Below, one piece after another: positions 21,652-62,147 of a DNA stretch of 64,000 bases. The stretch comes from Candidatus Margulisiibacteriota bacterium (GTDB taxonomy: Bacteria > Margulisbacteria > Riflemargulisbacteria > GWF2-39-127). The DNA is taken from NCBI GenBank assembly GCA_003242895.1, contig QKMY01000019.1, positions 1-64,000 of the forward strand, read 5' to 3'. Both the position numbers and the translations under genes were made by a program. The notes beneath the pieces are model-generated. The model saw nothing but the letters and a program-made list of their open reading frames with translations. It did not search any database and was not told where the DNA came from. Position 1 is the first letter of the stretch. Each line of letters opens with the position of its first letter.

Positions 21652-21998
21652 GTTTATTCTGTAATAATTTTTTTCTTTCTTTATATTTATATATCCAAAT
21701 AACATCAAAAAATTGGTTTCGAATAGCTTTAGTATAAATTCGCATAATAATATGTGGTATTTAGCTGCATATTTCAATTTCCTATACTCTTCTATCGACG
21801 GCAAGTTGGTATTTTGCAACAGTACCAGGTAAAACAGAGTAGAAGTATGTGGCGTTTTGCAACCACAAAAGTCAGCCTCTTTTCTAATCCTCATTATTCC
21901 TGCATTTAAGCAATTGGCATAAAAATTGATAATCATCAGGCGGTGTTTATTTGGCAGCAATAATATTCGAATATGACTTGTACAGAAAAGAGGGCACA
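21652..21998. other. 347-base intergenic region before the giant C25 gene
   Basis: AT-rich. I see no convincing coding frame, tRNA or terminator hairpin. A GAGGG ribosome site lies just before the ATG at 21999. The frame of the giant gene is open upstream to a TTG at 21951, but the extra 16 residues precede a clean signal peptide and are unlikely to be translated. Confidence 0.5.
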
Positions 21999-30900: not shown

Positions 30901-33503
30901 GCGAAGATCCTGCATTTTCTGCTGTAACTATTATGAGGAAGACATCGTACGATGATAGTAGTAAGATTATTAAATATCTTTCTAATACTGATCACCAATA
31001 TATTGATAATAAGGTGAATAGAGATACAACGTATATTTATGAATTAACTTATACTAATAGTTCAGGACCGCATACTATTCAGTTACCTCCGGTGACACCT
31101 AAAGACGAAATTACTCCTGATCAAATAAACGATCTTCGTGCCGAGTATGTTTTAGGTACCGGAGGTAAGACTATAAAATTGACCTGGTCAAAAGTAGTTG
31201 ATACAAAAATAAGCTCACTTGGGGTTTATAGAAGTTCAGGTTCAATAAATCAGTGGCAAAGAATCGCAGTCTGTAGTTCAGCACTTGTCGAGTATCTGGA
31301 TGCAGCTTCACAGCCATCCGTAACTTATAACTATAAAATCGAGAGCTTTTCGAACCTCGCATCAACTGCAAGTAATATTGTAAGTGTTAAATCGTATGAT
31401 GATACGCCCCCGCCAGCTCCTGAAGTTATCGATGTTCCAAATGATCGAGGTACCCAACTGAAAGTAATCTGGCCTGTTTTAGGTGTCGATAAGATTAACA
31501 AAACATCTGGTTTGATGAATGAGTGGATTAAAGTTTCTTCAGTGAGTACTGCTGCGATCGTTTCAAATCTCAATTCAGATACCGATTACAGATTCAGTTA
31601 TACTGTTAATCGAGATGGACACGAAATCGAAAGTGTATTTTCGGGAGTGGTAAGACCAAAAATTGATATCTATATTTCTGCGCCTGTCACGAACTTTTTA
31701 GTAACCGACGTTTCTCCTGATAATGGTGATAATGCAATCCTGACCTGGGTAAAATCTGCTGATGACGGTAATGGGTTTAACGATATTTCTTTTTATATCG
31801 TTTACCGGAATAATGAGCGAATTGCTACCCTTAATAAGGGAGACACAACGTACATTGCCAACAAATTAACCCCGGGATGGGTTAATACGGCAGGTTATCG
31901 ATTCAAGGTCGCAGCATTAAATTCTTCTGGCAGGGAAGCTTTTTCTCCTGAGCGTTCCATTATTCCTCAGGATGAAAAGCCACCCAAAACACCTGTTAAT
32001 TTCCATTTTGCTACTACTACCGTGAAGAACGAACTTTGGTTGCAATGGGATAAAAACTCGGATGATACCAAAGGCTATTATGTTTATAAAAATGGAGAAA
32101 AATACAGGGTGCTTACTAGCGGTGATTCTTTATCGATAGATACGGGTTTAAGCTATAACGTTACTTATTCATATCAAGTTAGTGCCTTTGACAACGCAGG
32201 AAATGAATCTTTTAAAACTAATGTTATTTCAAAGATGTTTTTCCATACTGCTATGCTCAGTCCAGGGATTAACCTGATTTCAGTTCCTTATATCGTAACA
32301 GAGCTGTCAATGAGTGATTGCATTCGAGACCCTCAACTCATTGTATATAACTGGAACGGCAAAAAATATTCTATAGGAAATGAGCCTTTCACTCCTGCGA
32401 ATTCATGTTTTGTCAAAGTACAGAATGCGGTTGAAGTGAAGCTTAATAATCCGAAAAAGCTAACTCAAGATTATACCTTGAAAATCGCTAAGGGTTGGAA
32501 TCTTATTTCAGATCCATTCTTCATTGCACTTCCCTGTTCAGCAATAAAAATAAAAGATAGCACAGTAGTATATAGCTGGGCGGATGCGGTTAAAGCTCGC
32601 ATTATTGCTTCAAAACTCTTTGGCCTTAATGAGGCTCATGACGATTACAAAGAGATAACTGTGCTCAATCCATTTGAAGGTGCATGGATTAAGGCCTTTA
32701 AAGATATCGAACTGATTTTTCCCTATTCTACAGAATGGACTTCACTTAGCACGTTAGCTAATCAGGGTTATTCGACGAGTAAGACTAATGGCTGGGTGGT
32801 AACTATTAAAGTGCAAGGGAAGAGTTTTGAGTTGGGTCAGAGCGATGATGCGGTGGATGGCTATGATTATCATGATAGTTTGATACCGCCTCAGATTGCT
32901 GGATTTAACAAAGAAGCTCTCTCTTTTTATGAAGAACAAAGTAGTTGGGGAGAATATTCAGGATACTATAAAGCAGATATAAAAAAGAAAGACAGCACCT
33001 GGAAGATGATCGTTGAGAATGCAGGTGTTCCAGTTATTCCTGTTATGATTGAAGGATTGAATTCTCTTCCTAAGTCCAAGACACTAATCGTTACTGACAG
33101 AAACGGAAATATAGTACCTTTGAATGGCAACTCTTTTAGTTTAGCCGGTGAGGGGGGCTTTACGGTGTTCACTATTCAGGTATTAGATTCCAGCGATTTC
33201 TTCGAAATAAGCGGACTTGTCAATTATCCGAATCCCTGTAATATCAATAAAACCGATGTTAAGGTCAAGTTTAACTCAAACAAGACGGGTGCCGGTGATA
33301 TTAAGATTTACAGTGTGACTGGAAAAGAGATATATAAAAATGATTTCAACTTTGTCGTGGGGGACAACATAATTAGATGGGATGGAAGTACTCATAGCAG
33401 GGAACGAGTTGCTTCAGGCGTGTATTTCTATCTCATTGATGCTAGAAGTGTTGATGGAAGTTCCTTTAAGAAGAAAGAAAAGATAGCAATCTGGAATAAC
33501 TAA
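21999..33503 (+). CDS. giant secreted C25 (gingipain-type) peptidase with FG-GAP propeller, ~21 FN3 domains and sorting-like C-terminus
   Basis: 3834 residues. The domains in order (approximate residues) are: signal peptide 1-24; one FN3-like domain 55-130; a propeptide-like region; a peptidase C25 domain 360-720 with catalytic His in HMGHSNH (H598) and Cys in YTDGCFPNYF (C628); an Ig-like domain; a seven-to-eight-bladed FG-GAP propeller 924-1320; about 21 FN3 domains 1428-3411; a beta-rich region 3412-3730; and a FlgD-Ig/type-A-sorting-like domain 3738-3834 (NYPNPCN...GVYFYLI). Gingipain-like caspase-fold cysteine protease activity at the surface is predicted. Export probably depends on the C-terminal domain, by analogy with type IX substrates. 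A PorV-like gene follows. Confidence 0.88.
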   Translation: MKHNKLLVILIFLFFFSPQTGYSADIFTPLVNVFNGVLEAFARTSTSNLSLFSKDILEQGVSTDIKLVIGNSAGRPMLDWSGYWEESGSTLNEYSIYRSTNQKDWELVGKTKLPTYIDTAISFYTNYYKVIANYSDHKVASNVAPFNPMQSISFNSVPAAKQQSYDKMIEVTYTFADPTFEITSDGFQVMSVNGLYNEGTVGTPMLPYRAGHLLIPDGYKVASIEYDNLDTIIYKDKVLAPQQPAIPISSTEDQKTITVNESVYKSNTPNVSLSSQSPQLLSGYEILPLLITPVTYYAKDKKVIFSRKLKVTVNLVADRSIGMKNVLRPSSIKQINNAKKIVQALIDNRDALENDTQLKINSVQKRAVSNTYDLIIIAPQGFSSAYAPLITYKQSLGMKVLFVSTEQIFSNQAGVDNAQKIKNYIKYAYTSYGIQYVVLGADSEYVPTRKVPSYIGDYGGPDDQNINTDIYYACLDDGWDPNGNRIYAERGENYDRYSEVYVGRFPASSATEVTNMVNKTIQLSSMDPQTPYMKKTVVLGENLDSYTSGSSFTTYLSTALAAKFSVTKYADDVKYWGGSDLVSLINSNSAQFYSHMGHSNHVYNAKLNNSSVQSLNNSLPFIYYTDGCFPNYFVYSDSISEAYLTGAKGAAAFIGNTHYGWYYRGAGDGPSARYHNEFNKAVVQKDIKQISRAAVASREVMFPYWSVNDGSNCYRLLYFAINVLGDPSLEIVTDFTARKGVSIVSGFDQWERGTISVQTSAIGDKLISQSLYYRIGDNDSWKQLTTVSSLTLAYELDTTAYGDIQSFQLKAVAQYPDGNSDSQIASFGIDNTPPVTSTTVQNKTYNTEVSINIVSFDAMSGVDKIFFSIGDIAQQEYTDSLIISQGGNYNLSFYSLDKAGNKQNTVTVSFTIDKEARQGFPIQLTGAIYGVPTYKDIDEDGNVEIVVQSNDGKVYIFNHDGTPFTGWENGKEIGVKGAGSPAIADVDNDGRDEIIVFGSFVGISVYEIDVSLKWKNLVSGLSNNSSPVIADINNDGIKDILIATDGKLYALEGMNGTVMAGFPVNLSGGASFDIFGTPAVGDIDGDGDLEIALAFSTADVNPVTHFQLYHHNGVLIWDKTTPSVWMTASPVMGDINNDGKVEIIFAGGQEPAIYVFNSLGNPISGYPFRLASGHFALSPVLSDIDSDGYLDIIIPHLDPSDNKLFAVNYRGQIVPNFPVQVKAELSSSAVIGDLDGDGKPDILVGGNRNQLYAYTQQGALVSGFPKQLGSTMGLSPVLVDLENDGKTDILSGDWSGKISAWSTNGVYDSDNTQWSTFQHDPYHTGFYPTVFLESPATYYRTNGQVLLKVKTFSNYSWVKKIDFEYSFNSTNGINGTWQQADGIYNSPVEMLWDSQPKGNESDVYVRARSMTMDNAYSSYVFRKIYIDNKPAANVTNLKVTDPSDNGEKLLLSWTKSADDGAGRNDLVNYYLVVNDGEQSVTLGRGVTSYTLATDKMRTYTFFVKTFDGLNYNQCEKTGPVTPKDENPPYKVGNVVVTDNIKDNGGVLGISWNHSLSFNWTDLTISYKLYRSEHGLENWSMISSWLRDNKYTDYSATVNQVFDYKVIVTDKTYDIASDVATGSSKDDLAPALPVNFGVYDVAKDNGEAVIAAWTKSADDGAGSNDLSKYIVYIGSTVVELPPGSTTYTLTGTQKNKPYTFSLKTVDYNGNQAQTIQTSCYARDNRPPQVPTITVADVLNDAGGQVQISYPRSADDGGGSNDLVKYVLYRKFLNDLDGVSVSEQVADGHESYAVKVNTVDTVVYQFRLAVTDGENWSYGSWVDGSSIDNIPPKGISNFKGEDNPSDNGYQIKLTWTKSEDDGAGAKDVTGYTVYRKDAGEWIVVATLLKGVTSYIDSGVSNNAVYRYKIETRDKSCVTTTELPYGVIPIDNLPPDEVKDLTVQDNPNDNGGKTAVTWTKNTDDTISYVIYRNDEIIGTLNAVSINYFDNVPFDNVSYSYYILAYDGVNYSKGKPVIGFAKDNLVVPPTLLKAEDVAQDNGGMLKVTWIAPVSEPNLSKYFLYRNNLKLTILDADVTSYIDTAATKNIIFSYCLKSVDRFGNEASSNVLPGLSLDNINPYPIELYAQDRADDNGENIELSWKFDNFESDVVYTILRNGAVISSFNTYMTTYTDNSVAPNILNSYLIKADDGKNVITSNVVHISSIDNIVPDFNKLIKVEDNFGDNGKMLVISWDRSKALDVKGYKLYRSLDGSTFDIRVTLNGATANTVTYTDNVENNHLYYYKVVVSDGTNEVASNIASGKAIDNIAPEKVKNLTIINIQEESQVRKLFLAWQGPAEAGLSYSLYKNGQLLADNLLGTTYTDMNITKGIVCNYYILSDDGTYRTKSDTVSGVLVDLTGKDKENDNGNSIQLSWSCEKSAEYSTYNVRREGALIKTYRSNSMSYIDDTVDPNNEYVYEITADDGILKIFSTAVKVKAIDNLPPDVKPLAVADNLNDNGGVLNVTWSKSSAPDIKGYKVYGSSDGISFAMVASFNAVTFNLISYTDNVTNNKKYYYKILVFDGTYDVESNVAYAMAVDNVAPETVKDFVVIDTRNDNGTSLSLSWENPPETGLKYQLYRNGQLLKDDLRDTVYIDNGLVKGKSYSYCIVADDCTYRTTSNTITATPLDDYINPVKDVSVSDVPDDEGYALRLSWTNPADTDLKSIVICRNGQIITQLEKTAISYIDAGVLPSVNYLYTIEVSDMDNNRSLVSVNGIAIDNTGPEPVTKIDVTDPYDNGGILQMSWIKSDSKDVIGYEIYRMEKNPEDKYGPWKKISTIMDRNIECFEDKGLDLLTIYIYKVRVFDSRNQADSKQSEPTLPKDEIVPQQVVLNAVDNPNDEGGVIYLYWTASDPDVVIYRVIRNGHEIGSTTNLKYYDLAVEGKYEVIAEDRAGNQSKSNPTNRVCAYRNIPVVTVEDVAPDNGSQLKLFWACEDPAFSAVTIMRKTSYDDSSKIIKYLSNTDHQYIDNKVNRDTTYIYELTYTNSSGPHTIQLPPVTPKDEITPDQINDLRAEYVLGTGGKTIKLTWSKVVDTKISSLGVYRSSGSINQWQRIAVCSSALVEYLDAASQPSVTYNYKIESFSNLASTASNIVSVKSYDDTPPPAPEVIDVPNDRGTQLKVIWPVLGVDKINKTSGLMNEWIKVSSVSTAAIVSNLNSDTDYRFSYTVNRDGHEIESVFSGVVRPKIDIYISAPVTNFLVTDVSPDNGDNAILTWVKSADDGNGFNDISFYIVYRNNERIATLNKGDTTYIANKLTPGWVNTAGYRFKVAALNSSGREAFSPERSIIPQDEKPPKTPVNFHFATTTVKNELWLQWDKNSDDTKGYYVYKNGEKYRVLTSGDSLSIDTGLSYNVTYSYQVSAFDNAGNESFKTNVISKMFFHTAMLSPGINLISVPYIVTELSMSDCIRDPQLIVYNWNGKKYSIGNEPFTPANSCFVKVQNAVEVKLNNPKKLTQDYTLKIAKGWNLISDPFFIALPCSAIKIKDSTVVYSWADAVKARIIASKLFGLNEAHDDYKEITVLNPFEGAWIKAFKDIELIFPYSTEWTSLSTLANQGYSTSKTNGWVVTIKVQGKSFELGQSDDAVDGYDYHDSLIPPQIAGFNKEALSFYEEQSSWGEYSGYYKADIKKKDSTWKMIVENAGVPVIPVMIEGLNSLPKSKTLIVTDRNGNIVPLNGNSFSLAGEGGFTVFTIQVLDSSDFFEISGLVNYPNPCNINKTDVKVKFNSNKTGAGDIKIYSVTGKEIYKNDFNFVVGDNIIRWDGSTHSRERVASGVYFYLIDARSVDGSSFKKKEKIAIWNN
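24770..25960 (+). repeat. FG-GAP/VCBS propeller blades inside the giant C25 protein
   Basis: Eight repeats of about 50 residues, each with an Asp-rich calcium-loop core: DIDEDGNVEIVV, DVDNDGRDEIIV, DINNDGIKDILI, DIDGDGDLEIAL, DINNDGKVEIIF, DIDSDGYLDIII, DLDGDGKPDILV and DLENDGKTDILS. They form an integrin-alpha-like propeller that binds calcium. Confidence 0.85.
26280..32240 (+). repeat. array of about 21 fibronectin type III domains
   Basis: Tandem domains of about 90-100 residues. Each opens with a PP linker, then a D-x3-DNGG element, then LxLSWTKS. Several copies carry an acidic insertion (SADDGAGRND, SADDGAGSND, SADDGGGSND, SEDDGAGAKD, SADDGNGFND) after the W strand. Copies are diverged at DNA level, so the array is old rather than a recent amplification. 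Confidence 0.8.
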
Positions 33504-39098: not shown

Positions 39099-40703
39099 CT
39101 AATTTACAGGGCGCAGTTTTTCTTTAATTATGTTTTTTGCTGCATCTTTTTCGACTAACTTATTAGGGTTATAATTATAGATATCTTCCGGAAATAAATG
39201 ATAGTTATAGCCTACACGTATCACATCGATCATCCAATTTTCTTCCACTGGGTATCTCGAAATAAATTTGATCGGCGCTGGGTTGTTGGGTATATCAAGG
39301 ATCAAGATGATCATTGCCAGCATTTGAACGTTTGTCAAATATTCTTCAGGACGGAAGGTATCATCCTCAAATCCGCTCGTGATTTTTGCGGCAGCTATTT
39401 TTTCAATGTATTGCTTTGCCCAGTAAGTATCGGGAATGTCTCTGAACTTTATTATATTTGGAGTTGTAATGAGCGATATTTTTTCATTGCATTCTTTCGT
39501 AAAAGCCAGTAATTGCGCAAATTCTGCTCTGGTTATCGGGGTCGATGAAAAATTAGAGGTGCCTGGTTTTCCCTCAATTGATTGTGCTTGTATCGTAGCT
39601 ACGATTGCTGATAACCCCGTTAGGACAACCGGAGTGATATTTGTAGTTACTGTATTAATGATGACAGATGGTAAGGTTAGTTCTTTTCTAGCAGTAATAT
39701 CAGGAATGGGTTGCTTTTGAATAATAGAAATCTCTGGTTCTGGTTTTATATTAACTGAGGGTTTGTTGGGTTCCTGTGGTTTTTTTTTGATTTGATTTTC
39801 CGGTAGTTCATTTGGTGTTGAATCGGTGATAGCATTCATATTTCTGATGCATTTGGCAAGAATGTCATCGAACGAAATGCTTACTTCCAAAAGGCTCATG
39901 TCGTTCCTGGAATTTACGGCATCCTTTTTTATAGAATAATGAAAATCCGCAAATCCACTATTGTAAGTGAATCCGGCATTATATTTAAGTGATTCGGAGC
40001 TGCCAAGTCGAATTATGAGTTCGCTGTTCGGCCTGAAATCTATCCCGAATCCAGTTTGTATGGATTTTTTTACGGTCAGTGCTTCTATATATAATGTTGC
40101 TGCCTCAGATAATTGCATGCTTAGTCCAGTACCAATCTGGGCTAGTAATATGTCGTTCACTCCTCTATTCCAGAATACAACTCCTGCCAGGTTGCGTACT
40201 TGAGTTCCAATTTTGATTCCATTTGACAGGTCGTAGATAACTCCAAGATCCATGCTGAAGCCTTTGCCTGAACCAAAGCCGATGTCAGATATTGATTCTA
40301 ATGTAGTGTTAACATTTAAATTTGCTTGTTTGCTGATTGCTTTTATCGTAGATAAGGTTGTTTTGTGCTGTTTTGCATAGACGTTCGTATTGATTTTTTC
40401 TATTCCAAAATAATGCCATCGTTCCGGCTTGAGTTCCTGTTTTTGGATGGTTAGCGTAATGTCCATGCCATATATGTTTTTTAAAAGAAAGTACGAGGAG
40501 GTATTCTGAAGTTTTTGAAGAGAGATATATCCTAAGGTATAGCTTTTATGGTGTCCATAAGTTTGCGGAACTATAATTCCTTTACTTCCAATCCCTGTGA
40601 GCCTTGCGTTAATTTCGCTCTGTGACGAATCAATAATAGAGGCGGATACCGGAAGTGCCGCCGATAGCAGTAAACATAATATAAATACTATTCTTATGTT
40701 CAT
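39099..40703 (-). CDS. outer-membrane barrel protein with C-terminal S-layer-homology domain
   Basis: 534 residues. The signal peptide is IVFILCLLLSAALPVSA. Residues about 25-285 are beta-strand rich (GKGFSMDLGVIYDLSNGIKIG, LIIRLGSSESLKYNAGFTYN), as in a barrel related to the PorV group. A Pro/Lys/Glu linker (about 300-350) follows. Residues about 390-530 hold SLH repeats: TPITRAEFAQLLA, FRDIPDTYWAKQYIEKIAAA and TSGFEDDTFRPEEYLTNVQM. SLH domains bind secondary wall polymers, so this could tether the outer membrane to the wall. In OmpM-type tethers SLH is N-terminal; here it is C-terminal. AAAGGA supports the start. Last gene of the minus-strand envelope operon. Confidence 0.78.
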   Translation of the reverse strand: MNIRIVFILCLLLSAALPVSASIIDSSQSEINARLTGIGSKGIIVPQTYGHHKSYTLGYISLQKLQNTSSYFLLKNIYGMDITLTIQKQELKPERWHYFGIEKINTNVYAKQHKTTLSTIKAISKQANLNVNTTLESISDIGFGSGKGFSMDLGVIYDLSNGIKIGTQVRNLAGVVFWNRGVNDILLAQIGTGLSMQLSEAATLYIEALTVKKSIQTGFGIDFRPNSELIIRLGSSESLKYNAGFTYNSGFADFHYSIKKDAVNSRNDMSLLEVSISFDDILAKCIRNMNAITDSTPNELPENQIKKKPQEPNKPSVNIKPEPEISIIQKQPIPDITARKELTLPSVIINTVTTNITPVVLTGLSAIVATIQAQSIEGKPGTSNFSSTPITRAEFAQLLAFTKECNEKISLITTPNIIKFRDIPDTYWAKQYIEKIAAAKITSGFEDDTFRPEEYLTNVQMLAMIILILDIPNNPAPIKFISRYPVEENWMIDVIRVGYNYHLFPEDIYNYNPNKLVEKDAAKNIIKEKLRPVN

Positions 40704-44942: not shown

Positions 44943-45306
44943 TTTTCGCTAAGCCTAGTGTGTTTATATATATATTAATAGATATTTTATTATGATAACA
45001 ACAAAAAAATACAAAGTAAAATAGTTTGTTGGTTTTTGTTTTAGGTAACAAGAAATATAGAATATGCTTTTTTGCTGTGCCACAAAAAAGTACCAAAAAG
45101 GTGCTTAGGAGGTTCCCTAAGGACTCCGGTGAGAGGAACTCGCTCACGAACCTGGGTATGTATACCTTGAACCGTTGTTTAGTGGCTTGGTTTGGTATAT
45201 GTTGCATCGAACATATGGGAGAATTTAACAAAAAATTTCTTTAAAATGAATAATGTATGTATAATTAAAGTATACAATATTACATTTGACGTGGGGAATT
45301 TTGATA
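44943..45306. other. 364-base divergent intergenic region with strong secondary structure
   Basis: It separates the envelope operon (minus) from the CheY-like gene (plus). Between 45080 and 45220 several hairpins can be drawn: AGGTTC (45110-45115) with GAACCT (45148-45153), enclosing GTGAG/CTCAC (45129-45133 / 45143-45147); GGTAT/ATACC (45155-45166); and ATATGTT/AACATAT (45197-45203 / 45210-45216). A second GAACC at 45169-45173 could compete for the same GGTTC. It could be a structured leader or small RNA on either strand. No known RNA family is recognised. Confidence 0.4.
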
Positions 45307-45690
45307 ATGGACCATAAATTTAAAATACTTATAATTGATGATATGGCAGTTATTAGAACAATATTGAGAGTCGCGCTATACAATACGGCTGATATGGTTC
45401 CTGAACAAATTTATGAAGCTGGAAACGGAAAAGAAGCTTTGGAACTATTGAGTAAACAAAAAGTGGATCTAATTTTTTCGGATATCAATATGCCGCAAAT
45501 GGATGGGATAGCGTTTTTGAAAGAACTTAATGCCCGAGGTATAAAAATACCTGTTGTTGTGCTTAGTACCGTGGAGTCGAAGGATAAGATTATAGAAGCT
45601 ATAAAGCTCGGCGCTATTAAATTTATCCACAAACCATTTCATTCGGAGGACTTAAAAGAGGTAATTGATAAAGTAATTCTAGATAAATAG
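45307..45690 (+). CDS. CheY-like single-domain response regulator
   Basis: 127 residues, a stand-alone receiver. The acidic pocket is intact: D11-D12 in ILIIDDMAVIRT, the phospho-acceptor D59 in FSDINMPQMDG, Thr/Ser in VVLSTVE (88) and Lys in IHKPF (109). No output domain is present, so it should act by binding a partner, as CheY does on a motor switch. The ATG at 45307 has GGGGA nine bases upstream; the frame is open from a TTG at 45286. It directly precedes the FliF-FliG-like genes by 400 bases. No histidine kinase is in the window. Confidence 0.9.
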   Translation: MDHKFKILIIDDMAVIRTILRVALYNTADMVPEQIYEAGNGKEALELLSKQKVDLIFSDINMPQMDGIAFLKELNARGIKIPVVVLSTVESKDKIIEAIKLGAIKFIHKPFHSEDLKEVIDKVILDK

Positions 45691-46091: not shown

Positions 46092-47741
46092 ATGAATAAT
46101 ATAAAAATAATTTTGATAATGATAGGTTTATTTATAATTCCGATTCAGAGTTATGCTCTTGATAGTTCCTCAATTGCAGGGAAGGGCGAGTACGAAAATA
46201 ATCTTGAAGTAACATTACAGAAAATGGTAGATGCTATTGCCGGTAACGGGCAAGCGGTCATCGCCGTAAATGTGGACCTGGCACCCAGTCTTAAAAAAAT
46301 AAGTTATACGAATCAATCCGATGTAGAAGTGAAAAAAAACGAAGCAAAAGTAAAAGGACAATATTTAATGCCGGGAGTTCCTGCTCTGAAAAACATCAAT
46401 GAAGCAGCTTCTTCTTCGCTCCCGTTTGACTATCAGGAAGAATCAACAATTTCTGAAATAAAGAAGATAAATGTGAACATTCTGTTTAACTCAGAAATTT
46501 CCGGAAGTCAGATGGGCAACGTTAGAAAATTTGTAGAGAATTATCTGCGGACAAAATCTAGAAGCCGCTCCATATTAATATATAAAGAGAAATTTAATGA
46601 AAAATCGGGAATTGATACTGCATTTGGTAAGTTTAAGGATAGTAATGAGGCTAAATCTTTTTTAATAGATGTAGCCAGGGAAGTAGCTAGAGACATTTCG
46701 AATAAGTCTCCGGATTCAAAAGAAACATCTCCGATTGTTAGTGAAGTAAATTCTCAGGTTAATAGTAATTCAGGGCTGCCTGGAAAAAACAATTTAGTTA
46801 TTATTGGCGCAATCTCAGTTGGAGTTTTGTTGCTCTTTATCGGTCTTTTTGTAATACTCATTATGGCTGTGTTAAAAAATGGAAAGCATGGATCCGAAAC
46901 TTCGTCTATGACGGCTGGAAGCTTTAGCAACTCAGCAGTGGGATCTGGATTTGGTTCGACAACATCTGGAGAAACATATGCTCCTGCTCATTCTGTTGAG
47001 GCTTCCGTTCAAGATGAGAGCGAAGAGAATCATATGAAAGAAAAGAAGTTTTTTGCGTTTATTAATAAAAACAATGTTCATAAGCTTAAACATCTTTTGC
47101 AAATAAAAATTGCTTTAAACGAAGCAACTCCACAAACGATTGCTATGACACTTGCCTGTTTGTCCCCGGATATATCAGCAAAGATTCTAGTTGAATATCC
47201 ACCTAAGATACAGGCAGAAATCGTATCAATACTGGTTAGTCTTGAACAATATGATGAAGAAGCAATCACCAATCTGGAAAAGGAAATCGCAAGCAAGATC
47301 AGTACTCTGCTTGGAGGAAAATATACTATTAGAAGCCTTATTGATAGCTTGTCTACAGAGAATAAGAAGATTATTACGAAGACAATCGCCCAGAAATACC
47401 CGTCAGTTCTTGATGATATCCGTGATTATATTGTACTGTTTGAAGACATAATTGCACTTGATGAAATGTCTATAAAGAAAATATTCAGTGAACTTGATTC
47501 CAACACTATTGCAACTGCTATTTGCCGGTTACCTAAAGCACAGCAAGACGGTATTATCAGGAATACCGCAAAGAGTACGGCAGCAATGATTGAGCAATGG
47601 GTTGAACTCAAAGGGAATAATATTTCTTATATGGAGATTGAAGAAGCCCAGAATAAAGTTATTAATTTTTCTAAGAAACTTGAAAGTGAAGGTTTAATTA
47701 AGATAGAAAAGATTGATTTTTTAAAAGCTGACGTAACCTGA
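46092..47741 (+). CDS. FliF (C-terminal part)-FliG fusion: minimal MS-ring/switch protein
   Basis: 549 residues. A signal/TM1 (residues 4-22) leads to a periplasmic region resembling FliF_C: YENNLEVTLQKMVDAIAGNG and QAVIAVNVDL, then LMPGVPALKN, INVNILFNSEISGSQM and ILIYKEKF. TM2 is 234-261. After a Ser/Gly linker, 319-405 match FliG middle domain (FFAFINKNNVHKLKHLL, ATPQTIAMTLACLSPD) and 408-540 match FliG C-terminal domain (IRDYIVLFEDIIALDEMSIK, EIEEAQNKVINFSKKL). Missing are FliF RBM1/RBM2 and the FliG N-terminal domain, which normally binds FliF; the covalent fusion makes that unnecessary. A ring in the inner membrane with a cytoplasmic switch face is predicted. The next FliG-like gene starts two bases later. 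Confidence 0.78.
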   Translation: MNNIKIILIMIGLFIIPIQSYALDSSSIAGKGEYENNLEVTLQKMVDAIAGNGQAVIAVNVDLAPSLKKISYTNQSDVEVKKNEAKVKGQYLMPGVPALKNINEAASSSLPFDYQEESTISEIKKINVNILFNSEISGSQMGNVRKFVENYLRTKSRSRSILIYKEKFNEKSGIDTAFGKFKDSNEAKSFLIDVAREVARDISNKSPDSKETSPIVSEVNSQVNSNSGLPGKNNLVIIGAISVGVLLLFIGLFVILIMAVLKNGKHGSETSSMTAGSFSNSAVGSGFGSTTSGETYAPAHSVEASVQDESEENHMKEKKFFAFINKNNVHKLKHLLQIKIALNEATPQTIAMTLACLSPDISAKILVEYPPKIQAEIVSILVSLEQYDEEAITNLEKEIASKISTLLGGKYTIRSLIDSLSTENKKIITKTIAQKYPSVLDDIRDYIVLFEDIIALDEMSIKKIFSELDSNTIATAICRLPKAQQDGIIRNTAKSTAAMIEQWVELKGNNISYMEIEEAQNKVINFSKKLESEGLIKIEKIDFLKADVT

Positions 47742-47743
47742 TT

Positions 47744-48421
47744 ATGAATGAAAATTATTTTTATTTTATTACAAAAAAAAATATTCAAAAGTTTGTTTTT
47801 TTACTTGATAAAGAACTTGCAAAAAATCCGGGAAGAGATCTTGAGTTATTGACAATTGTTATAGGCTGTTTGCCTGGAGAGCTTGCTGTGGATGTTCTTG
47901 AACATTATCCAATGGAAATGCAGGCCGAGATTATGGTTGGACTGGTAAATTACCAGCAGTTTGAAGCGGAAGAAGTGAAACGTGTCGTCGAATTATTTTC
48001 CGAAAATATTAAATGTGTGTTGGGTGGAGAGGAATTTACAAAAAAAGTATTTGAGAGACTAGATAACGATGAAAAAATAGCTATTACAAGCTCGATTAGT
48101 AAGAGTTATTCTGAGTGTTCTCAAAAGATTTCTCATTTGGTTATTCTATTCGATGATCTGTTTGATATGGAAGCTAAAGATTTTAATATGGTTTTTTCAG
48201 GTATAGACGCTAATATTTTAGCCCCGGCAATGGTGAATATGCCGGATGATAAAAAGAAAAAGGTTCTTGCTTCCGTATCTGAAGGTATGGGAATGATGAT
48301 CAATGAATTTATCGAGTTGCGGGGAGATTCCATAGGCAAGCACGAAATTGAGCAAGCTCAAAAATATATAATCGATTATTCTGCTACCTTTGAGGCAAAA
48401 GGGCTGATCAGAATTAAGTGA
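47744..48421 (+). CDS. second FliG-like protein
   Basis: 225 residues, cytoplasmic, starting two bases after the fusion gene's stop. It parallels the fusion's cytoplasmic half: FYFITKKNIQKFVFLLDKEL (start of FliG-M), ELLTIVIGCLPGELAVDVLE and MEMQAEIMVGL, then VILFDDLFDMEAKDFNMVFS (FliG-C) and HEIEQAQKYIIDYSATFEAK. It lacks a membrane segment and the FliG N-terminal domain. The torque-helix charges of canonical FliG are not conserved. It may form a second or mixed layer on the ring. Confidence 0.75.
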   Translation: MNENYFYFITKKNIQKFVFLLDKELAKNPGRDLELLTIVIGCLPGELAVDVLEHYPMEMQAEIMVGLVNYQQFEAEEVKRVVELFSENIKCVLGGEEFTKKVFERLDNDEKIAITSSISKSYSECSQKISHLVILFDDLFDMEAKDFNMVFSGIDANILAPAMVNMPDDKKKKVLASVSEGMGMMINEFIELRGDSIGKHEIEQAQKYIIDYSATFEAKGLIRIK

Positions 48422-48527
48422 GCGAAAGTACTGAATAATTCGGCACAAGAAATATCTTATATTTTACGATAGATTAAATTGCAGATAATAATTTAATTTG
48501 AATTATTCTAAAAATAGAGTGGGGAAA

Positions 48528-49121
48528 ATGCAGAAATTATTGTTTCTTCTCGTCATAATTACTGTTTTCATGGCAAGAAACACCTGTGCTTATGCTCAGG
48601 ATGTTGTATATCCTGTGGCGGGTGATCAAGGAACCACCGAATTGAATTACGGAGGGGAATATAGCGGTCTTAATTATACGCTTAAAGAGTTGCCAGCTTC
48701 TTGCATCCTGGTTTCGAACCCTGAAGGAGACTATTTCTATAGTACTGCTGTTCAGGGATTTGTTATGGTAATGAACAGGAATTCTAAATGGCTCTGGGCA
48801 GTCCATCATCTCAAGATCCCTGATGGTATAAGGAATTATAAAGTTCTTCAACATGATAATTTTCTTTTTGTGATTGGCGGGACCATTGCAAATAACTTCA
48901 TTAATAAGACTATTTGGAGTGTTTATGTCAAGGACGGACTTGACACGTTGGAGTGGCGGAGGGCAGGGCTTCTCCCCGAAGAGGTTAACACTATTAATGA
49001 TATATCCAACTTTTATGCTGATGGCGATGATACAGGGATTACCATGAAATTTATCTCTGGTACTGCTGCTACTGTATTCTATGGGAAATTTTCCGGTAAT
49101 AATATTGTATTTAATAAATAG
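48528..49121 (+). CDS. small secreted protein with a kelch-like segment
   Basis: 197 residues from the ATG at 48528 (GGGGAAA just upstream), which begins the signal peptide MQKLLFLLVIITVFMARNTCAYAQ; the frame is open from a TTG at 48498. The central part, YKVLQHDNFLFVIGGTIANN plus TIWSVYVKDGLDTLEWRRAG, resembles one kelch blade like those of the giant protein immediately downstream (29-base gap). It has too few blades for a closed propeller. Possibly a partner or a partial duplicate of the giant protein's N-terminus. Confidence 0.6.
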   Translation: MQKLLFLLVIITVFMARNTCAYAQDVVYPVAGDQGTTELNYGGEYSGLNYTLKELPASCILVSNPEGDYFYSTAVQGFVMVMNRNSKWLWAVHHLKIPDGIRNYKVLQHDNFLFVIGGTIANNFINKTIWSVYVKDGLDTLEWRRAGLLPEEVNTINDISNFYADGDDTGITMKFISGTAATVFYGKFSGNNIVFNK

Positions 49122-58100: not shown

Positions 58101-60319
58101 GTAATAGCGGACAATTGGTTATTTCATCAAATTCTATCATTTCTGATAAACTAATAGCATCCGTTAATACATCGGTCCAGGGTAGCAGCACTATTATCAA
58201 TTTGCCATTTGCAGTTAAGGAGCGTATCAGGACGACATCAATTAACTATTTGATTGTTGTTGATATTGCTGAAGTTGACAGATCAAATGAGACTTTTTCT
58301 TTATCATTGTCCGCTCCTTCAAGTATTACTCCTGATGAGCCTTCGGATAATGTTACCGGTGAATTCCCATCTGCTTGCGGACCATATTCCCTTGTAAATA
58401 CGAATGATAAGCTGTATATGTTCCAATATCCTGTTGCGGTAACCCGGAATGTTGCGCAAGAGGCTTCAAATTACGTAATAGAGACCTTTGGGCTAAAAAC
58501 ATCTATTAGGTACGCTTCTATTGCGCAGGAAATAGTATTCAAGAAAACCGGCACTTTAGATAGCCAATATATTAAGAACGTTCAGATATATCGTGATGAT
58601 AATAGTGATTGCATTTTTAACCCGTCAACAAATACAAAAGTATCAACACAATTGATCAATACCTTTAACGGTAGCGGATGGGCTGTTATACCGATTGAAT
58701 TGCAATTGCTCCATTCTAGTACTGTTAATTACTTTGTTGTGGTTGATATTGATCCAAACGCGCCTAAGGGACAGACTTTGGGTATTGAAGTACAGAACTC
58801 AGACCTCTTTAAGACATTTAATGTTCTTCCTCCGGATACTATTGCTAATGAGACTTTTAATTGGGAGCCTCATCTTATCAACATTGTCCGTTACCAGACG
58901 ACAACTCAGTTCAGTTTTGCAACTTCAGTAAATCAGAGTATCAGTGTTATTAACGAATTTGAATTGTGTCGTTTATATTTACAAACATTTCATAATACGT
59001 CTTCTCTGAAAGGACTTATTTTAAATCTAAATGGTGAAATTAATCCGATCAGTATTTCTAAATTGAACATCTATAAAGAAACTGGCATTGTTGATGGTTT
59101 CGATGATACTGATGAACTCTACAATAGTTCCTTTGCTTCCTATGAGAACTATTTGGTTGCTACCGGAAATACTGAAATAACGAGTGATAAAGAATCACTA
59201 TACTATGTTTTAATTAAGCTCGATGAAAACAATACAACGACTAATACCCTTTTTTCTGTTCAGTTGAGCCCGACTCTCGATGTAATGCTTAATGAAGAAG
59301 CAATGATATTTACTACTGCAAATTGTATACTTATTACAGCAAATACATTAGATGAAAGACAGCCTAAACGACCTACAATTAATTTTTCCCCGTTTATCAA
59401 CAAAACAAACCAATTAAGTTTTTCATTTGAAAGCTTTGCTCTTAATGGAGTAAAAAATGTTAAGTATGCTATCGGAACGATGCCAGGAATAGCAGATATT
59501 GTCGACTGGAAAATAATAGATCTTTCGACTCTACATTCTGTTCATGCGAATACCGTTACCGATAATGCGGTTACTTCAAATATTGTAGTTGATAATATAA
59601 CGTTAATCCCCGGACAAGGATATTATATTGCATTTCAGGTGATGAGCTCGGAAGGATTATGGAGTGAGCTCAGTATCTCTGATAAGATACTGGTCGATCT
59701 CTCTCCTCCATCGATACCGGGAAGGCCATTTGCACAGCTTAGTTCTTCTACTGCTAACATAATTATTAGCTGGGGTAGTTCAAATGATTCTGAATCAGGG
59801 ATTGCGAAATATTATCTGCAGATGAAAAAAGGATCTGCATCGGAATGGCAGCTTATTAATGTCAGCAATCAGACCAGTTATATAGTTGTCCCATCATATA
59901 ATTTTGACACTTACTATTTTCGAGTGAAAGTAGAGAATAATGCCGGTGATATGAGTGGGTACTCAGAAGAATCCGCAGGTATTACTTATGGGCCTGACAA
60001 GCCTTCAGCCCTATTATCTGATGTGATTAATTATCCGAATCCATTTTATCCTGACAAAGAAAAGACTTTTATATCGTATGTCCTGAATGCCCCTGCTGAG
60101 GTTGTGATTAAAATATATGATCTGTTTGGAAACCTGGTGAAAGATCTCAGTTTCTCTCCCGGAGGACCTGGAGGGACGGAAGGCTATAATATTATTGAAT
60201 GGTCAGGAAAAAATATATTTGAGAATGTCGTTGCTAAAGGCGGTTATATTGCAATAATCAGAGCAAAAGCTGATTCAAAAGAAATACAAATAATCAGAAA
60301 GATTGGGGTTATTCGCTGA
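49151..60319 (+). CDS. giant surface protein: kelch propeller, ~17 repeated modules, sorting-like C-terminus
   Basis: 3722 residues. Signal peptide 1-30 (LFQVFFLLLLVSSSLCA). Residues about 77-690 are a dozen kelch-type blades (MYVAGGNNG, YVYTIGGYNG, KIFVVGGSTN, YMYIVGGIDG, TLYVFGGNDG). Residues about 775-3395 are some 17 copies of an unrecognised module of about 150 residues. Two Ig/FN3-like domains (about 3415-3600) follow. The end is a FlgD-Ig/type-A-sorting-like domain (INYPNPFYPDKEKTFISYVL, VVIKIYDLFGNLVKDL, GGYIAIIRAK). No catalytic site is visible; an adhesin or filament role is likely. Overlaps closely with the next gene (four-base gap). Start could be the third codon (49157). Confidence 0.85.
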   Translation: MKMNLTRYKKTLFQVFFLLLLVSSSLCALERNIGDNKQNEFEQGIFYNTRPYNTVDGEIGLFARGNIDPSWVQESSDIIKIPQPLTGHRAFFHNKRMYVAGGNNGTVTNKIYFWGIDTDGTLTGYQETQQLNEPLENFAVVNYNSYVYTIGGYNGSAISDIVNYAKIDANGDINSFQSSTNKLPVALQDHGAVFYKGKIFVVGGSTNSGFNSNIYATTVNVTGSIQSWQTVKTDNRLGNASIGIGVSGRYMYIVGGIDGGGVSNQVLKYNMETNVLTAMATLPLAREKASLVINKGNIYVVCGKNSTDKNSVYVASIDSNGDINAWTTASNFPLSGSNFASIPYESDNSSFIYSFISNNGKLDIYYGNIEGNYILDTFTSNGLYNMPDPLRDQSVVSTGNYLYTLGGYGDTYKNKILMTTKNISDGSIMPWKEIGTLPIPMDSFSATIIGSRMYVLGGINDAGRTSRNYVITINASTGELVNTWNEMAQFPNPLANHSAVCIKDTLYVIGGSTSTQSCISQVLVGTITSTGSINSWTVTKSLDAVSRHSTAVLGDYILVLGGQTGDGISNKVRYIQFDAQGKLSGEWQVDNTSKYLPYPVKDFSCEVYNNTLYVFGGNDGGAGRDGIVYLSLDGAVLGSWKTASNKMPGRIFEYDTAVLGSYLYVIGGMLNSTVVSSVYRAKFDSSIVYNSEGSFVSRVIDIGSVVSVNALNWASQGNNLSLSYDIAGDDGLWAGFSPFISGTQIAGISKLGRYLRYMAVVTANQVTVNSLLTSALFNYQAPLVSIQVVDTTPALVTQNTKSVVASFNIRTDASDGYWTKLNLWILSGYDHIGTINVLDKDMNVLATKTNVGPYNEIVIPTININSTATRNYLLAFDIKPRATVSESIQYKIEPTGFYFKAPAITSFLEFTSRADSQISRYIPVLQVQLLSPDSKPGYVGFPGPAGWLNHIHEGESFSNVGKILLSNDLNTSNMSTLKLEFSGTSINRDVDKVYLYKDKGNGVYDYNYVINPEAGVSPDETLIASADVSEGVVILDLTSCIVTVDEQIATYFIVIDCPDSKRNSTINISCNDSSYFTVVATPSGLAASVNVSNMPLNSRTFAITAVLSKVQLVFTDTLQSAATQDAEIPVMKLEMNALPSYAKVATISIDIPSDIGYVTSKDIEEISIWKEINTLDWNKDKDLKVGAATFPFPANDKRYSISVPDMIVESATNTWYVVVKLSPAAYPGRLLKFSIPDDGWSWVQGEGAWDQVSPLPLGNITAQNLVTPNPTDECFMPANTAIQLIAPINVTQDRELDLFNFTLNTGSGAFVVNTMNFEVFGTHPTSDIDYLTLSYVKSNGVTENIAIASVLDNQYMNNSGLCTISLSEFMVIKDSLVTFNVKAKINPNASVNSTFNVSLDTESIPGGIMLRPADEDKFDGRIRVTSNILTIVKHDSIVSVAPIIYPYAVPSTNIEKNNEYLFQSFKIKNTSIYNSFFYGLRISITGNESEINVATANVYKNNQLIGSAPCPVNSSVTVNFNSVQVLDETWTNYSIKFVIDDNSRDYTNIGSSISQNSFILDPQAYFSGNFGLLGSQVATIDPKPSTLNIIASSINSRSPQGSNNVAVMRLIMAMDTGESHWTTLNIHSTGDAFPTRNISSAKIFRDSNDDNICSPDIDVLLSNSYAFDNNGMVTVSLNVPEHITTTNNGYFILFDIKGDATPGVTQGVEVVGVGLRDIRDKVSANYPVVNPLSGVGIDVAEIIVSVKTTDFLSLNYPSVFSLNSSNNVMLRIEMGAKPKAFAWESFRVNIKGTATGDDIKSIKIYKDEKNQNNLFGFFETASDTLISEKNVLAGVPYVDIINVDSVYRQIPYGSTVNYFAVISFEENATPNNTVSINISGVEVLAPGAVVQVNEWQSTLAIIDSSTVSIKVNQYESGSNLVLPNERDVAQGAHSEFFKLKLKTDVSYCNLHSVTISMQTDGAEYANSEYTNVNDIFAIKIVKDGNNPDNYSELEDTQIIATFNPTSGLEWNIPLSVPVMISKTDSIYWIVAAVSSNATPRRYLSLKITSANFELDRAAKTSMLPSTVITPTMNGKIIDPPSILEVFESGNKITGTVKQGEKVHVLYAGVRVNNQYETSLASLLIKLDGTIFPSDIKAIEVYKDVIGDSKILAKTPTGGIAEQLLGIASITDIAAPVQVDFTNVENGLITITSNPTYIHVVAVIDNIAEINHQSIFTITNNSFILANDSLFSDQVTSNAILIQSDNLAIEASSDTLNVIFNNYLTQEYIVTSDSKLNKLTAISLRASSNSVVLEKLELEVTGNYNSNDFSAFYLYEDTNLNSTYDVQDERIATSTINDNSVEFVFPDEMIQGTEHGMIVTDVLTRNYFVLFDVARHASANHYVKIISSKDNLYLSRTDDQDKIEMGNFSAATINIIEATDMLTVSINDYTLNEDYVFYRGDRFVPISKLTLSANQHETYFQAIHFQLNAGNDVPGEFLDLKRFAVYKENSGNNAFDSGKDYFVGEVRFQVSSIEKQEATITFSAAEVIGTQPVVYYFVVDLEKDLAPIGITGNLGFTISTSDFKVSSPDIVSFSGAFYNGFHSINELPKQLYVNDVGSLAPHEAGTGTTFNIMEKLLLSSNHESITLNWNSLIVRVNGTLKDSEITSIHIIRDNPNTGSIGVCDLGDSEVTVNTYKNGKIFELTFDNAEVMTGTSNWYFLAVDVHPSANIGNKFQLRVESADSYGVDNGTIVRVDNAVFETDYSTISIPRNYVTVFFSDVVSKNLYQAEEKAIGAVLSLSTNGKQINWESIKLDKLGTLDERKIKQINVYKDINNNKRLDLTGDVVDMKITVGQIYTINEGSVLMNFGAYKQILNSTTQNYLVICDLADDLIPGSSLGFSIAGPDSLSGMSADEEVVNISGNIIQAPILSKILTVEASMDTLLVVMHGLQNAEFIPGSRNVTLASVEMATDRNFVDISTIQFSKGGSLDLSNIECIKLYRDDGSGNSGQLVISSNSIISDKLIASVNTSVQGSSTIINLPFAVKERIRTTSINYLIVVDIAEVDRSNETFSLSLSAPSSITPDEPSDNVTGEFPSACGPYSLVNTNDKLYMFQYPVAVTRNVAQEASNYVIETFGLKTSIRYASIAQEIVFKKTGTLDSQYIKNVQIYRDDNSDCIFNPSTNTKVSTQLINTFNGSGWAVIPIELQLLHSSTVNYFVVVDIDPNAPKGQTLGIEVQNSDLFKTFNVLPPDTIANETFNWEPHLINIVRYQTTTQFSFATSVNQSISVINEFELCRLYLQTFHNTSSLKGLILNLNGEINPISISKLNIYKETGIVDGFDDTDELYNSSFASYENYLVATGNTEITSDKESLYYVLIKLDENNTTTNTLFSVQLSPTLDVMLNEEAMIFTTANCILITANTLDERQPKRPTINFSPFINKTNQLSFSFESFALNGVKNVKYAIGTMPGIADIVDWKIIDLSTLHSVHANTVTDNAVTSNIVVDNITLIPGQGYYIAFQVMSSEGLWSELSISDKILVDLSPPSIPGRPFAQLSSSTANIIISWGSSNDSESGIAKYYLQMKKGSASEWQLINVSNQTSYIVVPSYNFDTYYFRVKVENNAGDMSGYSEESAGITYGPDKPSALLSDVINYPNPFYPDKEKTFISYVLNAPAEVVIKIYDLFGNLVKDLSFSPGGPGGTEGYNIIEWSGKNIFENVVAKGGYIAIIRAKADSKEIQIIRKIGVIR
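49380..51220 (+). repeat. kelch-type beta-propeller blades
   Basis: About twelve repeats of 45-55 residues with the kelch double-glycine (VGGxxxxG) and the spaced aromatic motif SWQTV / AWTTA / PWKEI. Twelve would exceed a single six- or seven-bladed propeller, so two propellers in tandem are likely. Confidence 0.75.
51480..59340 (+). repeat. about 17 copies of an unrecognised ~150-residue module
   Basis: Each copy has a VMRLxMxxDTGExHWTTLNI-like start, then a strand ending in an acidic loop such as IFRDSNDDNICSPDIDVLL, VYKDINNNKRLDLTGD, LYEDTNLNSTYDVQDERI or IYRDDNSDCIFNPSTNT. It closes with NYFILFDI-type strands (NYLLAFDI, TYFIVIDC, NYFAVISF, VYYFVVDL, NWYFLAVDV, NYLVICDL, NYFVVVDI) and an NATP/SATP turn. 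The acidic D-x-N-x-N-x-x-x-D loop resembles calcium-binding loops. Confidence 0.75.
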
Positions 60320-60323
60320 TATT

Positions 60324-62147
60324 ATGAACAAAAAAATAATAAGAAACGTATTGATCTATCTAATATTAATAGTTACGGTAACTGTTCAACAGGTTTGTGC
60401 TGTCTCGCAAAGTGGCGGGATAGCCGGTCAGATGATGCTGTGGGGAGTCAATGCCCGGGCTATTGGAATGGGAAGGATGTATCTCTCAATAGCTGATGAT
60501 GCTAGTACTTGTTACTGGAACCCTGCTAACATGAACCTTGTTGATAGGAAATCTATTAGTTCTATGTATTCTTCTCTTCTCGGGTTATCTCAGTATACTT
60601 ATTTCGGGTTTGTTTATCCAACGATTGGGACCGAGAGCTGGGGAGGCGCATTTATACAATTATCTTCCGGAGAATTCGATAAAAGAGACTCCAATGGCAG
60701 TCCTCTGGGTTCGTTTGAAGTTGCACATCGTGCTTTGCTTCTAGCTTATTCACGCCAATTAACTGATTCGCTTTCTTTTGGAACTTCTTTTACTTCGTTA
60801 TCGAATACCGTAGACAGTATTGGAGATTCAGCAATATTGTGTGACATTGCTACATATTATAGGCTGCAAAATATTAGGATGTCCGGCGCAGTTAAAAATA
60901 TTATTTCATATTCTTTAGGTTCTCTTAGTAAAGATAACTATCCTTTAATTATTAAATTGGGAATGTCTGCTTATACACTTGATGATTCATTACTTATTGG
61001 GATTGATATGAACAGGATAGAGAATAGTTCGGCGATTGAATGGGCTATTGGTGGTGAGTACAAGTTATTGGAAAGATTTTTTTTAAGAGCTGGATTTAAT
61101 AGCGGCGATCTTTATGGCGGAATCGGGGTTGGGTATAGCGATGTTAAAGTCGATCTTGCTCTGCACATGAGCGAAGTTGCCAATTCGTATTTTTTCTCGA
61201 TTAATTATGCTTTTGGCGATTCGCGAATTGTAGAGAGAGAGAATGTGATCAGTGCAAATATTTCTAAAATGGAATCGAAAATTGCTGATGCAAAGTATCA
61301 CGAAGCAGGTGTAGCAGGAGATTATATACTATCCCTTGATGCAGGTAATAATGCAGTTCGCAATAAGGTCAGACGACTTAAGAAAGTAACCGATATTGTA
61401 GATATAAACGCGAAGTCTCAAGAATATTCATCTGATAAAGTTCGCGAACTAATTACTTATGCAGTAAAAGAGTATTTGGTAGAAGATGAAACTAAAGCTG
61501 TTAATAAACTTCAATACGTTTTGTTCCTGCAACCGGAGCATAATTCGATTGCAAAAGACCTGCTTGCTTATCTATTGAATACGACGGATGAAAATAAACT
61601 AGCCGGGTCAGATATTGTTGGCGAAAAAATGAAGGAATCTTTAGTTAACTTCTATGGCAGTAAATATGATGAAGTTATTAAAAACTGTGACGAAGTTATT
61701 CAGTTAGACCAGAATAACATTGATGCTTATTTACGAAAGGGTTCAGCTTATTTCATGATTCTGCAAGAAGAGAAAGCTATTGAATCCTGGCAAAAGGTAT
61801 TAGAGATCAACCCTAACATGAAAGAAGAAATTGAGAAAATTATACAAAATCTCAAGAAAACTCGGGCTACTCTTAGCTCTGATGATGATAGCGGTAACGA
61901 TAATAATCAAGAAACTGATAATTCCGAGACAACGATAAAGGGAATATCTATCGGAACGTTTAAGGATGAGCGAAGTGCTGCAAAAAGAGTTAGAGAATTA
62001 GAAAAAAATAATATCCCGGTGGAAATTAGCAAGAACAATGGGATGTATAGAGTATATGTTAATGGTAAAGGGAAAACGTTCGAAGAACTTAAAAGTATTT
62101 TTGAAGAACTGGTTAATCGGAATTATAAGGCATATTGGATGAAATGA
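60324..62147 (+). CDS. PorV-like barrel fused to TPR and SPOR domains
   Basis: 607 residues from the ATG at 60324; the frame opens at a TTG (60303) inside the giant gene's end. Signal peptide (NVLIYLILIVTVTVQQVCA), then the PorV-type start VNARAIGMGRMYLSIADDAS and CYWNPANMNLV, and a barrel to about residue 295. A helical region follows with TPR units (about 425-515: YDEVIKNCDEVIQLDQNN, IDAYLRKGSAYFMILQEEKA), then an acidic Asn/Asp linker. A C-terminal SPOR domain ends the protein (GISIGTFKDERSAAKRVREL...YRVYVNGKGKTFEELKSIF). SPOR binds denuded peptidoglycan, so this would span outer membrane to wall. Downstream partner of the giant kelch protein. Confidence 0.8.
   Translation: MNKKIIRNVLIYLILIVTVTVQQVCAVSQSGGIAGQMMLWGVNARAIGMGRMYLSIADDASTCYWNPANMNLVDRKSISSMYSSLLGLSQYTYFGFVYPTIGTESWGGAFIQLSSGEFDKRDSNGSPLGSFEVAHRALLLAYSRQLTDSLSFGTSFTSLSNTVDSIGDSAILCDIATYYRLQNIRMSGAVKNIISYSLGSLSKDNYPLIIKLGMSAYTLDDSLLIGIDMNRIENSSAIEWAIGGEYKLLERFFLRAGFNSGDLYGGIGVGYSDVKVDLALHMSEVANSYFFSINYAFGDSRIVERENVISANISKMESKIADAKYHEAGVAGDYILSLDAGNNAVRNKVRRLKKVTDIVDINAKSQEYSSDKVRELITYAVKEYLVEDETKAVNKLQYVLFLQPEHNSIAKDLLAYLLNTTDENKLAGSDIVGEKMKESLVNFYGSKYDEVIKNCDEVIQLDQNNIDAYLRKGSAYFMILQEEKAIESWQKVLEINPNMKEEIEKIIQNLKKTRATLSSDDDSGNDNNQETDNSETTIKGISIGTFKDERSAAKRVRELEKNNIPVEISKNNGMYRVYVNGKGKTFEELKSIFEELVNRNYKAYWMK

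Follow-up and report, generated by a model that had tools for sequence, protein, structure and literature searches.

Gene organization of the locus

The window, a 64,000-nucleotide stretch of DNA corresponding to contig C19 of a Candidatus Margulisiibacteriota genome (3.35 Mb, 100% complete), contains a gene in which parts of FliF and FliG are joined in one chain (referred to as the fusion); after a gap of two bases, the open reading frame of a soluble FliG paralogue (FliG2) follows (Table 1). An earlier note on this DNA, made from the letters alone, had described the second FliG-like protein two bases on, together with a giant kelch protein, a PorV-like barrel, and sorting-domain proteins as neighbours, and all of these were borne out, including the barrel (PorV_fam; 4.3e-32). 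The window also encodes a secreted 3850-aa protein (positions 21951-33503) with a gingipain-like Peptidase_C25 domain (2.1e-49), FG-GAP repeats, fn3, and a sorting-like tail; type IX systems are the usual secretion route of C25 peptidases with such a tail. Next to the motor locus, positions 39099-40703 encode a predicted outer-membrane protein that has an SLH domain (3e-10) at its C terminus. CheY-like single-domain regulators, without a FliM to bind, were found beside several fusion loci (L039:12083-12810 and L064:8530-8901, in addition to that of the window at 45286-45690).

Table 1. Coordinates of the features in the window and of the S2 clusters described in the text.
Feature	Position	Strand	Basis and remarks
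CheY-like response regulator	45286..45690	+	Upstream of the fusion; Response_reg 9.7e-29; may provide input, without evidence that it belongs to the system
Putative signal peptide, aa 1-22	46092..46157	+	Read from the translation (..PIQSYA before, LDSS after the cleavage site); AxA-like sites in relatives too
Rotor protein, FliF RBM3 - TM - FliG_M - FliG_C fusion, 549 aa	46092..47741	+	Pfam; PDB sequence and fold matches; hhalign with FliF
Periplasmic RBM3-like domain, aa ~33-168, with shortened beta-collar insert	46188..46595	+	Family HMM against FliF; model
Transmembrane helix, aa ~234-262	46791..46877	+	Sequence; model helix H234-262; aligns to FliF TM2
FliG middle domain, aa 342-406	47115..47309	+	FliG_M 5.3e-13; TPQ in place of the EHPQ FliM-docking motif
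FliG C-terminal (torque) domain, aa 431-538	47382..47705	+	FliG_C 4.1e-18; C/S/Q/W/S in place of K264/R281/D288/D289/R297
FliG2, soluble FliG_M+C paralogue, 225 aa	47744..48421	+	FliG_C 1.2e-12; groups with class fusions (95%)
Small secreted protein between FliG2 and the giant gene	48498..49121	+	No Pfam match
Giant kelch surface protein, 3722 aa	49151..60319	+	Kelch 9.4e-44
PorV-family outer-membrane barrel with TPR and SPOR domains	60303..62147	+	PorV_fam 4.3e-32, over the cut-off (NCBIfam)
S2 clusters	L047:8131-15021, L048:660-7564, L051:4445-10632, L056:3372-10356		
S2 clusters, further	L083:114-5034, L084:3691-10234, L085:5627-10482		

Domain architecture of the fusion protein

Membership of the fusion in the FliG_M and FliG_C families was established by scores above both curated Pfam cut-offs (FliG_C, 66.1 bits against 23.3; FliG_M, 49.4 against 25), and the closest solved structures in a PDB sequence search were those of T. 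maritima FliG M+C (1.5e-26). In FliG2, the FliG_C domain was matched (1.2e-12), and the score of the M domain was under the cut-off. On the other hand, the FliF_C part of the window protein gave no Pfam match on its own, and YscJ_FliF_C was found in 4 of 18 members of the fusion family (best 3.3e-5). When a profile of 29 family N-termini was aligned by hhalign with canonical FliF of the same phylum, a match of 98.3% probability (E 1.7e-13) was obtained, compared with 0.2 and 5% for the controls MotA and MotB, respectively; this match was limited to residues 206-478 of the 528 residues of FliF. The family HMM matched the canonical FliF of one genome (G000) in two blocks, 235-300 and 353-502, corresponding to a split RBM3 and TM2, and the collar insert between the two RBM3 halves is mostly absent in the fusion. 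An AlphaFold model, of which only fold-level matches were used (mean pLDDT of 51, built from 5 sequences), gave RBM3 the order alpha-beta-beta..beta-beta-alpha-beta; Foldseek searches with this low-confidence model matched FliF RBM3 rings (3e-5 to 1e-4), among them the RBM3/collar structures 6scn, 6sd1, and 7cg7 (3e-5 to 7e-5), and FliG_MC 1lkv (2.5e-9).

RBM1 and RBM2 (no YscJ_FliF match) and FliG_N were not found in the fusion. The protein does not meet the description of a canonical FliF (RBM1, RBM2, and RBM3 with two transmembrane helices), and of a canonical FliG it has the M and C domains without the N domain, the EHPQ motif, and the torque charges. These results agreed with the earlier note, in which the periplasmic part had been likened to only the RBM3 side of FliF and the cytoplasmic part to the middle and C-terminal domains of FliG (FliG_M, 5.3e-13; FliG_C, 4.1e-18), and the lack of RBM1/2 and FliG_N had been recognized; the profile searches that it had proposed matched FliG_M and FliG_C, whereas FliF_C was reached only via family members and profile-profile alignment. 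Its description of a two-TM protein was not supported. Since the hydrophobic segment at the N terminus resembles a signal peptide that would be cleaved (..IQSYA before, LDSS after the predicted site), one membrane span is likelier than two, and the fusion probably spans the membrane once.

Distribution, phylogeny, and selection

The fusion was found in 29 of 74 Margulisbacteria genomes, and flagellin was not detected by a Flagellin_N search in 21 of these 29; among the 74, flagellin was found in only eight genomes, all of the class to which the window belongs. These data consist of sequences only, mostly from metagenome-assembled genomes, and the counts are not phylogenetically independent. 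Named relatives identified by sequence (narrow alignment search) were Candidatus Margulisbacteria GWF2_35_9, two Marinamargulisbacteria, and a Termititenax. The cleanest case is G017, which has a single FliG_C gene (the fusion), a single MotB, and no flagellin. In trees of the FliG M and C domains, the fusions and FliG2 formed one clade (96%) separate from canonical FliG, with the origin of FliG2 inside the class of the window (95%), suggesting that FliG2 is a duplicate of the FliG part of the fusion; it lies directly after the fusion in relatives of the same class. The dN/dS values of the fusion, FliG2, MotA, and MotB were 0.03-0.06, and the fusion family is under strong purifying selection.

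The genome of the window itself has a normal flagellum: a canonical operon (flgB, flgC, fliF, fliG, fliH, fliI, and more) together with a flagellar MotAB pair on contig C57, FliM on contig C45, and flagellin on contig C24. The absence of other flagellar genes, claimed in the earlier note, consequently holds at the locus, but not genome-wide. According to the same note, its proposal would have been refuted by a normal flagellar set elsewhere combined with no conservation of the locus; the set is present, but the locus recurs in 29/74 genomes. Two longer fusions in this genome, on C14 (911 aa) and C58 (886 aa), carry SLH and TPR domains before RBM3. The occurrence of SLH, a wall-binding domain, in the periplasmic part of these two rotor paralogues (L022:7250-9985 and L023:9639-12299) is unexplained.

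Several related arrangements were observed in the phylum. Most Margulisbacteria have a filament-less basal body with rod proteins, FlgA/H/I, FliE, a full FliF, a FliG_N-only protein, FlhA/B, and FliP/Q/R but without flagellin (L106-L114; e.g. L107:914-12384), and FliG_C and MotB are also absent from the families without the fusion. A second, independent kind of fusion is represented by 825-aa FliF-like plus FliG proteins followed by a FliM-like gene (G012 and G055; L055:4794-7271 and L057:51-2528). Furthermore, several Margulisbacteria without flagellin have a cluster (referred to as S2) of a short FliF-like protein, FliG (N+M+C), MotA, MotB, and a short FliM-like protein (~170-200 aa; Pfam FliM, 8.6e-5), followed by outer-membrane/TPR proteins. 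The FliG of S2 retains R281 and mostly E288/E289.

Association with MotA and MotB

The usual order of the operon is TPR protein, fusion, (second FliG), MotA, and MotB. In 16 of the 21 loci outside the class, MotA follows the fusion on the same strand at a distance of 0-35 bp, and three genomes of the class have a contiguous fusion-FliG2-MotA-MotB; the comparison of gene order among relatives that the earlier note had proposed thus yielded fusion-(FliG2)-MotA-MotB in most loci. The downstream proteins satisfied the sequence criteria of a MotAB-type stator: MotA_ExbB (1e-21 to 1e-26) with P173/P222 for MotA, and the TM aspartate, MotB_plug, and an OmpA domain for MotB. MotB was present in 28/29 genomes with the fusion, compared with 1/45 of the others (Fisher, 4e-18), and at the family level the association was 12/0/1/14 (p = 7e-7); owing to the relatedness of the genomes, both p values make the association look stronger than it is. 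The sole genome with MotB and without the fusion (G054) has an S2 cluster, and no MotB match was found in G051 (55% complete).

Fusion-associated MotAB formed a clade with 100% support. No MotAB is linked to a fusion in the genome of the window, in which an unlinked pair on C23 (L046) belongs to this clade, apart from the flagellar pair on C57; the rotor loci on C19, C14, and C58 probably share this one pair. The stator was also unlinked in 5/21 loci outside the class, and in the f9 genomes and G047 the sole stator came from another MotAB clade. The earlier note had inferred a reduced rotary or switch ring. By gene content, namely a dedicated MotA/MotB, "rotary" is well supported; "switch" is not specifically supported, as there is no FliM, even though CheY-like genes are found nearby.

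Residues of the rotor-stator interface

At the positions of the torque residues K264, R281, D288, D289, and R297 (E. coli numbering), canonical FliG from the same genomes had K, R, E, E, and R in 6/6 cases, whereas the fusions had mostly hydrophobic, G/S, Q/E, aromatic/V, and S/T residues, respectively, with charges partly retained only in G032. In MotA, R90 was conserved in 1/29 fusion-associated copies versus 5/5 flagellar copies, and the single exception was again G032, whose MotA retains R90/E98. Since this genome keeps charges on both sides, the correlated loss elsewhere looks like a redesign of the interface. The FliG_C of the family has a conserved patch of M285, Q288, an aromatic residue at 289, and K293 (E. 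coli numbering). The channel prolines 173/222 were found in 29/29 fusion-associated MotA proteins, and the channel aspartate in every readable copy of the associated MotB. The FliM-docking EHPQ motif was eroded in the fusions, in agreement with the absence of a FliM gene at the fusion loci. From these residues, we infer one motor in which the rotor-stator contact has been redesigned on both sides with retention of the ion-driven core, although torque might also no longer be passed in this manner.

Possible load of the motor

Outside the class, TPR matches were found in 9 of 10 scanned proteins encoded upstream of the fusion, which are secreted. In C14, C58, and G005b, TPR occurs inside the rotor protein itself, an arrangement that points to a position of the TPR protein on the rotor. 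Within the class, the genomes share an orthologous giant protein encoded after the motor, and in the kelch giant of the window the C-terminal ~590 aa are homologous to it (BLASTP; 5e-37 for G002 and 2e-34 for G005a). PorV-family barrels adjoin five fusion loci (window, C14, C58, G005b, and G005c), while the neighbours of the fusion outside the class (hemL and TPR) include no giant or PorV genes. These secreted neighbours point to an outer-membrane or surface load, which remains an inference. The "non-flagellar surface machine" of the earlier note stands in its first part (21/29 fusion genomes without flagellin, and an own MotAB); "surface" is inferred from the neighbours only.

Interpretation and alternative explanations

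We consider it likely that the window contains the genes for the rotor of a MotAB motor, driven by ions and separate from the flagellum, the load of which is probably the adjacent surface proteins, with rotation and load both being inferred. An energizer of type IX-like secretion or gliding, in which FliF-FliG and MotAB replace PorKN and PorLM, is a narrower version of this explanation and not fully exclusive of it. Its hallmark of a PorV-family barrel with C-terminal sorting domains is met (PorV_fam, 4.3e-32; sorting-tail matches), since such barrels and sorting-like domains adjoin five fusion loci and the window also encodes a C25 peptidase bearing a sorting tail, but the evidence for the rest is weak enough to make this version unlikely, though worth keeping: the SprA/Sov translocon was matched in 0/74 genomes (a search without a positive control), PorU was above the cut-off in no genome, most of its matches covering just the tail region, sorting-like tails are also present where the fusion is absent, and the fusion loci outside the class have no PorV neighbours. 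Because SprA and PorU were not found, the locus was not assigned to type IX secretion, and a bona fide type IX system was rejected on the same searches, including the uncontrolled one.

The fusion might also be an alternative rotor of a flagellum-type basal body, as a variant C ring in flagellated members of the class and elsewhere as the motor of a filament-less rod/export apparatus, and a turnable basal body does exist in fusion genomes because rod proteins and FlhA are present in nearly all of the 74. We regard this as improbable: the rod operons encode a FliF of their own (505-576 aa; YscJ_FliF, 8.5e-48) together with a protein limited to FliG_N, most genomes with a rod/export set have neither the fusion nor MotB, and the fusion, which has no RBM1/2, FliG_N, or FliM motif, is not encoded beside rod or export genes (no exporter, rod, or hook genes were found at the fusion loci). 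RBM1/2 of FliF hold the export gate. The fusion as the MS ring of the rod/export apparatus was rejected, since that operon had its own FliF in 4/4 fusion genomes examined (G012, G017, G020, and G049; Pfam-confirmed in G012).

The loss of torque charges on FliG and MotA alike counts against the motor, as torque itself could have been lost, and SLH domains, should they bind the wall, would be strange on a rotating part. Both fit a static scaffold or linear-travel track, with the SLH domains of the C14 and C58 proteins suggesting wall anchoring and MotAB either pulling TPR/outer-membrane partners (as in ExbBD/TolQR/AglRQS) or only guarding the ion pore; many MotAB relatives function without a FliG ring (PMC9389320). 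Such a scaffold seems quite improbable to us, since FliG_C, needless for it, has been kept under strong selection (dN/dS of 0.03-0.06) with a co-inherited MotA, and since the charges were lost from both sides in a correlated manner and retained on both in G032. The known job of FliG_C is to take torque from MotA. Decay of flagellar genes after the loss of the flagellum, to which the lack of flagellin in most fusion genomes might point, can hardly be maintained against intact frames over many genera, a conserved operon, and several paralogues retained beside a complete flagellum in the genome of the window; the pseudogene reading is contradicted by the same dN/dS values.

Comparison with known systems

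The unit shares with the flagellar rotor and stator FliF RBM3 and TM2, FliG M and C, MotA_ExbB, and the MotB plug, channel aspartate, and OmpA peptidoglycan-binding domain. It differs in that FliF and FliG form one chain, MotAB forms its own clade, and genomes without flagellin also have it; RBM1/2, FliG_N, rod, hook, filament, exporter, and a FliM at the locus are absent, and the torque charges and FliM-docking motif are lost. In Chlamydiaceae, which are bacteria without a flagellum, a naturally occurring protein with a shortened FliF joined to FliG was described (PeerJ 2016, PMC4768692). However, the Chlamydia protein retains a portion of the SctJ-like domain, has FliG_M only, and is without the RBM3/SpoIIIAG-like domain (PMC4768692), whereas the Margulisbacteria protein keeps RBM3, has lost the SctJ part, and is distinguished by FliG_C and an accompanying MotAB. 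GldLM/PorLM with PorKN is similar as a 5:2-type motor that is driven by ions and for which movement of outer-membrane proteins has been proposed, and in the PorV-family barrels and sorting-tail proteins that also occur near several fusion loci; on the other hand, GldL/M are not MotA/B by sequence family, the ring here is FliF-FliG instead of PorKN, and neither SprA (uncontrolled search) nor PorU was found. AglRQS, ExbBD, TolQR, and ZorAB are likewise MotAB relatives serving outside flagella, none of which is known to partner a FliG ring, and in a review of 5:2 motors FliG is covered solely as a part of the flagellar motor (PMC9389320). In a 2025 survey, rotor proteins without filaments were raised as an open question (PMC12199754). 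We found no description, in the open-access literature only, of a FliF-FliG plus MotAB unit apart from the flagellum or of a FliF-FliG motor in Margulisbacteria.

Proposed mechanism and implications

The more specific form of the separate-motor reading, toward which we lean with reservation, is a flagellum-independent gear-ring motor in which FliF-RBM3/FliG rings and a dedicated MotAB, meeting at a redesigned contact, move surface proteins. Some tens of fusion subunits would form a ring via RBM3-RBM3 contacts and FliG M-C stacking, which FliG2 may supplement with another FliG layer or additional teeth. MotA5B2 units, anchored to peptidoglycan by the OmpA domain of MotB, would turn the ring by ion flow through a redesigned, non-charged MotA-FliG contact, without FliM, an export gate, rod, or hook in the machine. 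The periplasmic face of the ring and the TPR partner would transmit torque to an outer-membrane load, for which the PorV-family barrel and the giant surface protein encoded next to the fusion are the best candidates in the lineage of the window. The motor may move adhesins or drive their export, as GldLM/PorLM do in Bacteroidota. Rotation, ring assembly and size, MotA contact, 5:2 stoichiometry, ion flow, and load are all inferred from genes and residues, with no direct evidence.

A bare rotor and stator of this kind probably serves the cells to turn or pull a structure that is not a flagellum, and the loci provide a repeated, concrete case of a rotor-stator unit without the rest of the flagellum. 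If true, the uses of 5:2 motors would be extended by one in which, for the first time, a FliG rotor works outside the flagellum, and the same phylum would hold a second, FliM-containing relative in the S2 clusters. RBM3, a transmembrane helix, and FliG_MC may be the parts that suffice for a rotor. The family also offers a natural experiment on the MotA-FliG interface, with charges gone from both sides and the ion channel kept, and bears on the ways in which flagella might have been assembled from, or broken into, separate modules.
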